From: a bacterium BMS3Abin14
GTDB lineage: Bacteria; BMS3Abin14
Direction of reading: 5' to 3'
NCBI GenBank assembly: GCA_002897695.1
Contig: BDTG01000008.1
Location: 62,001 to 126,000 of the forward strand
DNA: 64,000 nucleotides
Notes under the pieces: model-generated
Told to the model about the DNA's origin: nothing
Databases searched by the model: none
The model's input: only the letters and a program-made list of their open reading frames with translations
Program-made: the position numbers and the translations under genes
Part shown: piece by piece, positions 1,184 through 46,303 of the stretch
How the letters are laid out: every line of letters starts with the position of its first letter
How positions within the stretch are numbered: the stretch's first letter is position 1

Positions 1184-1915
1184 ATGCCTGAGGAAAACGA
1201 TCTTCGGCTGCAGGAGGTTGGAAGCGGCATGGCCGAGGTTGACGTTCTCATTTTGCGCGGGCAGCTTGACGATGCGGAGATGACCCTCCTGGCCATGCAT
1301 AAGCAGAATCCGGATTTTGCGGACATCTGCAACAAGATGGGTCAACTATACTTCCAGAAAGGTGACTATCTCCGCGCCAAGGAGTTCCTGGCGAAGGCGG
1401 TCAGACTTAACCCGGACTATACCGAGGCGTCTCTGAATCTGGCGGTCACCTATAACGAGATAGGAAAATATAAGGAGGCCAAAAAGGTTGTAGACCAGGC
1501 TCGTGAGAGGGTCAGGAGGAAAAACATACCTATTGACCCCTTTATCGCGGGGAAACTGGCCAACAAGCACAAGGAAGTTGGGGATATTTACCGGGAACTG
1601 GGACTAATGCAGGAGAGTGCAGATGAATATCGTAAGGCCCTGACACTCTCACCCGGTTTCGCCGATATCCAGGTCAAGTTAGGGGTTGCGCTCAGGGAAA
1701 TGGGGCATATTGATGAAGCTCTTGATATTTTCTCCACTACGGCCACAAAGCGGCCGGACTATCTGGATGCCAGAATCCAGCTGGGCATCACCTACTTTTC
1801 GCGAGGATTCGTTGACAGGGCGCAGGATGAGTGGGAAGAAGCGCTTCGGATAGATCCCCAGTATTCCAAAGCCCTGATGTATCTTAGTTTCATTCGGGAA
1901 CAGGAAGCGTTCTAG
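1184..1915 (+). CDS. Tetratricopeptide repeat protein (243 aa)
   Basis: ATG 1184 is preceded by GGGAGGA. No signal peptide is apparent, so the protein is probably cytoplasmic. At least five TPR units are recognisable: FADICNKMGQLYFQKGDY, PDYTEASLNLAVTYNEIGKY, KEVGDIYRELGLMQESAD, FADIQVKLGVALREMGHI and LDARIQLGITYFSRGFVD, covering nearly the whole chain. TPRs form superhelices that hold partner proteins; the partner cannot be read here. The gene follows the BamD-like gene by 56 bases in the same direction and precedes a LysM protein, suggesting an envelope-assembly neighbourhood. Confidence 0.8.
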   Translation: MPEENDLRLQEVGSGMAEVDVLILRGQLDDAEMTLLAMHKQNPDFADICNKMGQLYFQKGDYLRAKEFLAKAVRLNPDYTEASLNLAVTYNEIGKYKEAKKVVDQARERVRRKNIPIDPFIAGKLANKHKEVGDIYRELGLMQESADEYRKALTLSPGFADIQVKLGVALREMGHIDEALDIFSTTATKRPDYLDARIQLGITYFSRGFVDRAQDEWEEALRIDPQYSKALMYLSFIREQEAF

Positions 1916-43721: not shown

Positions 43722-44084
43722 ATGAGATACACATTGCTTGCGGGCAAGATCCACCGTGCGACTGTAACGGGCACCGACCTGGAGTACGAAGGGTCCATCA
43801 CCATTGACAAGGGCCTCCTGGAAGCGGCCCGGATCCCCCTCTACTCCCAGGTTCAGATCTACAACGTCACCAACGGGGAGCGGTTTGAGACCTACGCCAT
43901 CCTCGGCGAACGGGGGTCCGGCGCCATTGCCCTTAACGGAGCCGCCGCGCACAAGGCAAGCAAGGGGGATATTATAATCATCGCGTGCTATTGCCATGTT
44001 GCGGCCAAGGATGTTCTCTCCCACAAACCGTCACTGGTCTACGTGGATCAAAACAACGCCATCAAGGAAACCAAACAGGGATAG
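43722..44084 (+). CDS. panD: Aspartate 1-decarboxylase
   Basis: Pyruvoyl enzyme giving beta-alanine from aspartate. The 120-aa proenzyme contains the self-cleavage site Gly24-Ser25 (EYEGSITID), Lys9 in AGKIHRATVT and the Tyr/Asn segment YNVTNGERFETY. Follows panC by five bases, completing panBCD so pantothenate can be made from ketoisovalerate and aspartate apart from ketopantoate reductase (panE/ilvC), which is not in the window. Confidence 0.97.
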   Translation: MRYTLLAGKIHRATVTGTDLEYEGSITIDKGLLEAARIPLYSQVQIYNVTNGERFETYAILGERGSGAIALNGAAAHKASKGDIIIIACYCHVAAKDVLSHKPSLVYVDQNNAIKETKQG

Positions 44085-44142: not shown

Positions 44143-44206
44143 TTTCCTTCGCGGCCCTTTGCGGCAGCGCCTGCAACAGGCGCTCTTCGTGGCCCTCTGC
44201 GATAAG
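44143..44206 (+). repeat. Hairpin-bearing repeat, copy 1 (panD-rtcB spacer)
   Basis: TTTCCTTCGCGGCCCTTTGC, then the hairpin AGCGCCTG-CAA-CAGGCGCT (44166-44184), then CTTCGTGGCCCTCTGCG. It aligns along its length with copies at 46132-46194 (direct) and 45822-45886 (inverted). The 185-base spacer holds no other feature apart from the rtcB start region. Confidence 0.65.
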
Positions 44207-44269
44207 GCTTTCAACTATCTGGAACCTGGCGTGTCGATATTTTCCGACACGCTGCCGGGGGACAGTATA

Positions 44270-45727
44270 TTGGCTGAAATAAACCCCGAAAAAATCGCGC
44301 CGTTCAAGTGGGAAATCCCCGTTGGAACCGTTCCCGGAATGAGGGTACACGGGATCATCTATGCGGATGAAGCCCTCATGGAGGACATCCGGCAGGACAA
44401 GAGCCTCCTCCAGGTTGCCAACGGGGCCACACTGCCCGGTATCGTCGGCGCCTCCATGGGCATGCCGGACATTCACTTCGGGTACGGCCTCCCCATCGGC
44501 GGGGTCGTGGCAACCGACGTTCAGAACGACGGAATCATATCCCCCGGCGGCACCGGGTACGACATAAACTGCGGGGTGAGGCTGGCGGGCACAGGGCTCG
44601 ACCGGAGGGCCCTGAAAACCAGGGACGCCCTCAGACGGTTTACCGACTCCCTGTTCGCGGGGATCCCCTCGGGGGTGGGTTCCAAGGGGGCGGTCAAACT
44701 GGGTGGAACCGAGATGGAAAAGGTCCTCGTCAAAGGTTCACGCTGGGCGGTGGAGAAAGGCATCGGAGACCCCGACGACCTGGCCCACACCGAGGAGGGC
44801 GGCTGCCTTGAAGGCGCTGATCCGGCGCAGGTCAGCGACCGTTCCCTGAAAAGAGGGGCGCCCCAGCAGGGGACCTTGGGCAGCGGAAACCACTTCGTGG
44901 AGGTCCAGTACGTGGACCGGATATTCGACCCCGAGGCGGCCGCCGCCTTCGGGATACACCAGGATCAGATAACCGTCATGATCCATTCCGGGTCCCGGGG
45001 GTTCGGCCACCAGGTCTGCACGGACCACCTGGAGAGGATGAAAAGCGCTGCCGGAAAGTACGGCATCGAACTTCCCGACCGGCAGCTGGTCTGCGCGCCC
45101 TTCCGTTCTCCGGAGGGCCGGAGCTATTGGGGGGCCATGAAGTGTGCTGCCAACTACGCGTGGGCAAACCGTCAGTGCCTCATGGACCGCGTCCGGGGGA
45201 TAATGATGGATTTCTTCTCCATGGGTCCCCATGACCTGGGGTTCCGGCTGGTTTACGACGTGGCCCACAACATCGTAAAGCTGGAGTCTCACCTGGTTGG
45301 AGAAAAAGAGCATCTCCTGGCCGTCCACCGGAAGGGCGCCACCCGCGCTTTCCCGCCGGGGCACCGTGACCTGCCGGTCGATTACAGACCGTTCGGACAA
45401 CCCGTCATCATCCCGGGCGACATGGGCACGGCCTCCTACCTTCTAAGGGGAATGGAAACGGGCATGGCAGAGACCTTCGGGAGCGCCTGCCACGGCGCCG
45501 GGAGGGTTCTGTCCCGAAAGGCCGCTATCAGGCAAGCCAGGGGCAGGTCAATTACCCGGGAACTGGAGGACCGGGGGATCTTCGTCCGGGCCTCGGGGAA
45601 AACATCGCTGATGGAGGAGATGCCCGAGGCATACAAGGAGGTTTCCCGTGTGGTGGAGGTGGTTCACCGGGCGGGCATCGCCTCAAAGGTGGCCAGGATG
45701 AGGCCACTGTGCGTAATCAAGGGTTAG
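44270..45727 (+). CDS. rtcB: RNA-splicing ligase RtcB
   Basis: GTP- and Mn-dependent ligase that seals 2',3'-cyclic phosphate or 3'-phosphate ends to 5'-OH ends, used in tRNA splicing and RNA repair. The 485-aa product has MPDIHFGYGLPIGG, SPGGTGYDINCGVRL with metal Cys101, GTLGSGNHFVEV, VMIHSGSRGFGHQV, and ACHGAGRVLSR with the guanylylated His. The frame is open far upstream into panD, but family alignment puts the start at TTG 44270, seven bases after GGGGGA (44257-44262); GTG 44231 is an alternative. No archease gene is adjacent. Confidence 0.93.
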   Translation: MAEINPEKIAPFKWEIPVGTVPGMRVHGIIYADEALMEDIRQDKSLLQVANGATLPGIVGASMGMPDIHFGYGLPIGGVVATDVQNDGIISPGGTGYDINCGVRLAGTGLDRRALKTRDALRRFTDSLFAGIPSGVGSKGAVKLGGTEMEKVLVKGSRWAVEKGIGDPDDLAHTEEGGCLEGADPAQVSDRSLKRGAPQQGTLGSGNHFVEVQYVDRIFDPEAAAAFGIHQDQITVMIHSGSRGFGHQVCTDHLERMKSAAGKYGIELPDRQLVCAPFRSPEGRSYWGAMKCAANYAWANRQCLMDRVRGIMMDFFSMGPHDLGFRLVYDVAHNIVKLESHLVGEKEHLLAVHRKGATRAFPPGHRDLPVDYRPFGQPVIIPGDMGTASYLLRGMETGMAETFGSACHGAGRVLSRKAAIRQARGRSITRELEDRGIFVRASGKTSLMEEMPEAYKEVSRVVEVVHRAGIASKVARMRPLCVIKG

Positions 45728-45746
45728 AAAAAGAAGAAAAGATAAT

Positions 45747-45821
45747 TTAACACAGTGCAGCCTCTGGCAGGCTGCTCCACAGGGTTTTAAAAGAGGGTTT
45801 CACGGAGAAGATCAAAAGCCT
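45747..45821 (-). repeat. Hairpin-bearing repeat, copy 2
   Basis: TTTAACACAGT is followed by hairpin GCAGCCT-CTGGC-AGGCTGC (45757-45775) and then CCACAGGGTTTTA and GGGTTTCACGGAG. Read on the minus strand, the flanks resemble the CTCTGTG/CCTGTG/CTCCGTG units at 46237-46285. The hairpin sits inside the repetitive flank as in the other copies. Confidence 0.55.
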
Positions 45822-45890
45822 TAACGCAGAGGCTCGCAGAGGCGGCCAGTCCCGGCCGCATCGCAGGGAGCCGCTGAGAAGGGCAACCCA
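45822..45890 (-). repeat. Hairpin-bearing repeat, copy 3 (inverted)
   Basis: The reverse complement reads CTTCTCAGCGGC, CCCTGCGAT, hairpin GCGGCC-6-GGCCGC (45842-45859), then CTCTGCGAGCCTCTGCGTTA. Flanks match copy 5 closely, while the stem sequence is different yet fully paired. Confidence 0.6.
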
Positions 45891-45909
45891 TTAGGATCCT
45901 GGTTTTAAA

Positions 45910-46009
45910 CTTTGCGAAACTTCGTTAACTTTGCGGTAAGTCGGCTCCTGCCCAGTGCGTAAGCAGACAAAAAGCTGGTTCACCGCAAAGTACGCTAAGT
46001 TACGCAAAG
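45910..46009. repeat. Inverted repeat pair of TTTGCG-type units
   Basis: 45910-45938 and the reverse complement of 45981-46009 agree at about 24 of 29 bases (CTTTGCG, AACTT, ACTTTGCGGT), separated by 42 bases. The unit belongs to a tract with no coding potential. Confidence 0.6.
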
Positions 46010-46035
46010 TAAGACGCGTCCCCACTTCATTAAAC

Positions 46036-46083
46036 CATGTGTAACCCTGTGGGGTGACCTGCAAGTGGTCACGCTGTGGTAAA
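46036..46083 (+). repeat. Hairpin-bearing repeat, copy 4
   Basis: TGTGTAACCCTGTGG, then hairpin GTGACC-TGCAAGT-GGTCAC (46054-46072), then GCTGTGGTAAA. Same plan as its neighbours, with a third unrelated stem sequence. Confidence 0.5.
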
Positions 46084-46130
46084 ATACATGCCTTATCGCG
46101 GTGAGCCGCTCCCTAACCCAAAGATTCAAG

Positions 46131-46287
46131 GTTTTCTCTGCGGCCCTTCGCGACAGCACCTGGAAGAGGTGCTCTCCGTGGCCCTCTGCGTTACAGTTTT
46201 TCCCAAAGCTCAGTCTGTAAAAACAATTAGTTTGGTTTGCCTCAACTCTGTGTCACCCTGTGTACTCCGTGTTGAAATAGCTTTTCT
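46131..46287 (+). repeat. Hairpin-bearing repeat, copy 5, and trailing CTGTG-type tract
   Basis: TTTCTCTGCGGCCCTTCGCG, hairpin AGCACCT-GGAAG-AGGTGCT (46155-46173), then CTCCGTGGCCCTCTGCGTTA. Compared with copy 1 the stem changes a G-C pair to A-T on both sides. The tract 46237-46285 (CTCTGTGTCACCCTGTG, TACTCCGTGTTGAAATAGC) recurs nearly unchanged at about 49570-49602. Confidence 0.6.
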
Positions 46288-46303
46288 TACCATCTTTTAC
46301 GCA

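Follow-up and report, generated by a model that had tools for sequence, protein, structure and literature searches.

The question raised by this locus was what five paired hairpins with differing stems signify on either side of rtcB. The window, a stretch of 64,000 nucleotides, belongs to a draft genome of 2.28 Mb (G000). All five stems claimed near rtcB in the initial annotation were present at their positions: AGCGCCTG/CAGGCGCT (unit 1, 44166-44173/44177-44184), GCAGCCT/AGGCTGC (unit 2, 45757-45763/45769-45775), GCGGCC/GGCCGC (unit 3, 45842-45847/45854-45859), GTGACC/GGTCAC (unit 4, 46054-46059/46067-46072) and AGCACCT/AGGTGCT (unit 5, 46155-46161/46167-46173). Unit 1 lies in a segment between rtcB (44270-45727, forward strand; protein 89% identical to that of the sister species G001; TTG start codon predicted) and an ORF at 43722-44084 (forward strand, from the ORF list), which we take to be panD from its sequence and from its position after panB- and panC-like ORFs. 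Both genes are outside the repeat elements.

Units 1, 3 and 5 had been said to align along their flanks, and did: the alignment of units 1 and 5 covers 69 nt, is ungapped and reaches 80%, and unit 3 aligns with them on the minus strand. The three follow a common 62-nt plan in which CTCTGCGGYYCTCTGCGRY is followed by a stem of 6 bp that closes a loop of ~7 nt and then by CTCTGCGGYCCTCTGCGTTAARGC. Units 2 and 4, on opposite strands, are a shorter version of this plan that lacks one sub-repeat of ~11 nt. When the 64 kb were scanned with covariance model R2, the five best matches were exactly the five units, including units 2 and 4, which had been excluded from the training set, and a single model groups all five as one family. 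Scores with R2 and with a second model, R1, were 72 and 88 bits for unit 1 (44147-44208, forward strand, a hairpin-bearing arm of the alpha type), 65.9 and 46.6 bits for unit 3 (45818-45878, minus strand, beta type) and 74 and 78 bits for unit 5 (46136-46197, forward strand, alpha type); R2 gave 14.5 bits (E = 0.1) for unit 2 (45744-45784, minus strand, stem core GCAGCC/GGCTGC) and 19.3 bits (E = 0.008) for unit 4 (46035-46085, forward strand, a hairpin arm that, like unit 2, is of the short type).

The units had been read as isolated copies and are instead arms of larger units. A full unit is composed of two inverted arms of pyrimidine-rich sub-repeats of ~10 nt, with outer ends TTAACGCAGAG.../...CTCTGCGTTAA; a small hairpin is possible in each arm, and the two hairpins of one unit differ in sequence. 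Downstream of rtcB such units are nested within each other. The outer element B (45743-46284, delimited by alignment and reverse-strand BLAST matches with the G001 locus L231 and by the fold of 45736-46295) has unit 2 as the hairpin of its left arm, TTTAACACAGTG..hairpin..CACAGGG, and CACCCTGTGTACTCCGTGTTGAAAT as its right arm. Units 3 and 5 are the left and right arms of a nested element C, inside which an inverted repeat that is also seen in the fold forms a pair of hairpin-less CTTTGCG arms (45908-46012; 45908-45945 versus 45973-46012, 76% complementary over 38 nt).

To follow the family beyond the window, R1 was built from six copies and used to scan 12 genomes of the phylum. Copies were found in 12 of 12, at 1-54 per genome (12 in G000, 38 in G002, 54 in G004, 14 in G007 and 40 in G010), and the family is thus dispersed genome-wide. 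About 100 loci were retrieved and 150 copies aligned (alignment A4). Copies are intergenic, 120 of 130 lying outside ORFs of at least 150 aa compared with 31% of random positions, and show little orientation bias relative to neighboring genes (same 37, opposite 22, divergent 21, convergent 17). In the copies listed, the foot of the hairpin is TGCGRY, and the right end of copies reads GCGTTAARGC. Searches of Rfam gave no match at the gathering score for the units, the region having three sub-threshold matches at chance level, and R2 found nothing among the 13 candidates scored per genome in 379 genomes of other families. An exact pattern gave five matches in GTDB contigs, two of them in Bacteroidetes genomes with inverted CTCTGCG arms and no clear hairpin, the rest being plain tandem repeats. 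No paper describing the flank strings was found in open-access PubMed Central, the sole literature source, which is not proof of novelty. Other common repeats accompany the family: a widespread repeat of the CCCTTCGACAAGCTCAGGGC type is inserted in or beside hairpin arms at L078, L079, L080, L081 and on contig 3 of G001 (L039), and the units at the G002 loci L090-L109 lie between AATCCAAAATCCAAAATCC and GAGATTGCTTCGCTCGCGATG.

The proposal that the stems vary while remaining paired held strongly when covariation was tested genome-wide. Among the 150 copies in A4 (148 distinct), 95.3% of stem cells were paired, compared with 68.3 ± 1.0 after shuffling; 213 cells were altered on both sides, compared with 63 in shuffles (148 distinct copies); double changes were present at all six stem pairs; and with the partner offset by 1-3 columns, pairing did not exceed 54%. 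Because A4 had been fitted to the model, which biases it toward structure, cores were also anchored by their flanks only. Of the distinct flank-anchored cores, 35% contained a perfect stem of at least 6 bp, compared with 6% when 5′ and 3′ halves were joined across copies and 0.7% in shuffled cores, and no fewer than 28 different perfect stems reached 5 bp.

A connection to RtcB, also suggested initially, did not survive comparison. In five relatives no repeat was present near rtcB, RtcB was encoded at none of ~100 other repeat loci, and the insertion between panD and rtcB is absent in G001. All 12 genomes contain repeats, but only 6 of them yielded an rtcB match, some of the genomes being incomplete. 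In the absence of co-occurrence and of repeats near other rtcB genes, the units were rejected as an RtcB substrate, and rtcB is a chance neighbor of the repeats.

Comparison with G001 (locus L231) bears on mobility. The gap between panD and rtcB is ~136 bases here, with unit 1 (segment 44086-44221, forward strand, from the pairwise alignment), and a few bases in G001. Insertion here is likelier than loss of the segment in G001, though not proven; no target-site duplication was visible at this single clean empty site. Element B is 3′ of rtcB in both species, in opposite orientation, and its inner insertions are absent in G001. At a locus common to both species (L087/L080), the G000 stem AGCGTC/GACGCT is intact and the G001 stem is broken, with another repeat inserted nearby. 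Mobility of the repeats is well supported. The panC-panD interval of G001 (L231 reverse strand, 957-1051) also holds a separate insertion, GATGACTTCGTAAAAAGTCATCAACGCGCC, with GC-rich hairpins, which is absent from the source genome.

The inverted-arm arrangement was then quantified across the family. An inverted partner arm was found on the 5′ side of 48 of 125 copies and on the 3′ side of 11 of 125 (background ~7%); for 77 of 125, a partner arm was not detectable. Near-neighbor copies were in -+ order in 24 of 34 cases. In two-hairpin units the hairpins are usually of different types, with an identity of 0.46 within units compared with 0.66 between units of one genome, a difference that could reflect descent from a single asymmetric ancestor, or a junction that has to stay immobile. 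Folded on a single strand, a unit forms a four-way junction, a fold obtained for 12 of 16 compact units (median z over the 16, -5.3). Arms of one unit match at 0.74, compared with 0.78 for arms of other units of the same genome, and therefore no covariation was found in the long stems, where one arm of a unit pairs with the other.

Like inverted arms are observed around GxxExxY genes (PF13366, PDDEXK_3; TIGR04256; PD-(D/E)XK nuclease superfamily) in many bacteria. These genes were found in 88 of 386 sampled genomes; within the phylum, 5 of the 12 genomes have them, some of the genes lying beside or inside hairpin arms (L177, L184) and others between arms without the standard hairpin (L175, L176). 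At L184, in G004, a degenerate GxxExxY remnant lies between hairpin arms (1223-1284, minus strand, and 1712-1778, plus strand); no GxxExxY ORF is between arms in the window. Outside the phylum, purine-left and pyrimidine-right arms were present on both sides of 16 of 26 GxxExxY genes and reversed at 0, the arm motif having been chosen after some of these loci had been seen; controls were 0 of 11 neighboring ORFs, 0 of 12 Y1 genes, 1 of 26 PF05635 genes and 1 of 64 other ORFs. The arms share CTCTGYG-type sub-repeats with those of our units and sometimes carry hairpins, as at two loci outside the phylum: L264, where the stems of the two arms differ (GAGTAAATCA/TGATTTACTC and GGACAAATCA/TGATTTGTCC), and L285, where one arm contains GATTTTGC/GCAAAATC. 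The purine-left, pyrimidine-right order is shared by 48 of 125 copies; unlike in the GxxExxY elements, there is no gene between the arms in most units here.

GxxExxY genes were found at two loci in IMG/VR, with arms at one (L279), and at none in GenBank phages. No relative with a solved structure was found, the AlphaFold model (pLDDT 41) was too poor for a structure search, and the papers naming GxxExxY in open-access PubMed Central are unrelated to repeats. Several loci deserve separate mention. On contig 9 of G004 (L179, 92319-93428), two GxxExxY genes lie in direct tandem as a duplication of ~759 bp, with 99.9% identity between the copies over an alignment of 836 nt. On a Sphingomonas parapaucimobilis plasmid (L281), a GxxExxY gene with a left arm interrupts the operon-like pair of fabD and fabG, and on a Gemmatirosa kalamazoonensis plasmid (L282), a GxxExxY gene is followed immediately by two inverted arms, AACCGCAGAGGACGCAGAG...CTCTGCGTCCTCTGCGGTT, that form a gene-less unit. 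In relatives, genes of PF05635 (four-helix bundle) at L203, L212, L214, L216, L222 and L228 have inverted arms of ~7-nt tandem repeats (e.g., GGTTCCA, GTGATTA, AGATCTC), a type other than that of the GxxExxY arms.

The family is of the broad REP/MITE/IVS kind, yet fully matches none of their defining feature sets. MITEs are short, non-coding elements with inverted ends and nested insertions that probably arose by reduction of coding elements. The units are likewise short, non-coding, inverted at their ends (both arms seen for 38% of copies), nested and probably reduced in this way, but they have hairpins within the ends, showed no target-site duplication at the one clean empty site, and have a parent that is only suspected, with no demonstrated transposase. 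Integron attC sites (PMC3053210) also keep their shape while the sequence varies, and their recombinase recognizes folded single-stranded DNA; however, the units lack the RYYYAAC/GTTRRRY ends, their GCGTTAARGC right end having a purine as the seventh letter, and no cassette arrays were seen around copies. The 23S rRNA intervening sequences with S23p (PF05635), such as that of Coxiella (PMC4990558), are similarly selfish, with a small, decay-prone ORF between long-stem inverted repeats, whereas the units are outside 23S rRNA, connect to another protein family (PF13366) and have hairpins within their arms. Identity with the PF05635/IVS system was rejected, as 30 PF05635 loci of the same genomes contained no unit in 92.6 kb. 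REP/REPIN elements with TnpAREP (PMC3116915, PMC2817692, PMC8266576) are dispersed intergenic palindromes, often in inverted pairs and thought to move in trans, and the units resemble them in being short, intergenic and palindromic, in forming inverted pairs and in numbering many per genome. A REP-type identity, with a REP-associated tyrosine transposase (TnpAREP/RAYT) as the mover, is nevertheless very improbable. The foot of REP/REPtron palindromes is a conserved tetranucleotide, mostly GTAG (PMC8266576), in place of which the units have TGCGRY; their stem sequence is free within the family and their conserved ~10-nt sub-repeats are outside the hairpin. No Y1 gene is near the units, the 14 Y1-transposase loci of these genomes contained no unit in 43.7 kb, and G007 (80% complete) has 14 copies and no Y1 match; RAYT/REP identity was rejected on the Y1 loci.

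Among ~675 cells of the inner five pairs, 10 were G.T and 7 A.C; because the two are about equally rare, the hairpin carries no mark of RNA. A role in transcripts, as hairpins for processing, stability or regulation and possibly as substrates of RtcB or RNase III, would be compatible with the intergenic position and with a structure that also folds as RNA (z -6.6). We consider this explanation improbable: G.U is not clearly favored over A.C, orientation relative to neighboring genes is nearly unbiased, Rfam has no match, no terminator is at the hairpins, and the presence of rtcB does not track that of the repeats. Terminators were rejected, terminator-like sites being fewer than in shuffles (1 versus 2.7). 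A more serious competitor, to which we give perhaps a minor share of the probability, is that the hairpins are neutral, the repeats having spread by any route while template switching during replication (quasipalindrome correction) rewrote one stem arm from the other with no selection. Hairpin stems are documented to arise and to be maintained through template switching (PMC8794818), and the changes here are mostly from whole pair to whole pair, with the same few mismatched cells. However, the place of the hairpin in the arm is fixed and stem length and loop are kept across seven genera, and the stems are just 6-8 bp. Of the initial proposal of selection for structure, the pairing kept through compensatory changes stands, while selection itself is likely rather than proven, since template-switch repair of hairpins yields the same pattern.

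We favor, with some confidence, the explanation that each of the five is one arm of a mobile intergenic repeat that is short and non-coding, probably derived from a GxxExxY element by reduction, and has hairpins kept by shape; most of the repeats are best read as non-autonomous. The repeats would be gene-less derivatives of GxxExxY elements, and the hairpin would be recognized by its shape while the unit is single-stranded or extruded. A PD-(D/E)XK protein, now presumably lost from most of these genomes, may have cut or resolved the folded unit and thereby moved copies in trans, making GxxExxY the putative mover of the repeats. Copies are abundant in G000, G002 and G010, where no GxxExxY gene was found, and the link may therefore be historical or wrong. 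A bolder version, which we regard as speculative, is that the family represents an undescribed, widespread class of mobile elements in which GxxExxY recognizes and cuts the four-way junction made by the inverted arms of the element itself; differing hairpins would block migration of the junction and so leave the stem sequence free.

The interest of the family rests mainly on the likely GxxExxY connection. Hairpins whose letters change while pairing is kept provide a natural test of selection for structure versus template-switch repair in DNA repeats. Intergenic repeats of the CTCTGTG/CTTTGCG type occur across unrelated bacteria, and GxxExxY genes have no known role; tying the two together offers a working hypothesis for both, in which a small gene of a nuclease family resides in a mobile element with inverted arms and gene-less copies of that element spread between genes.
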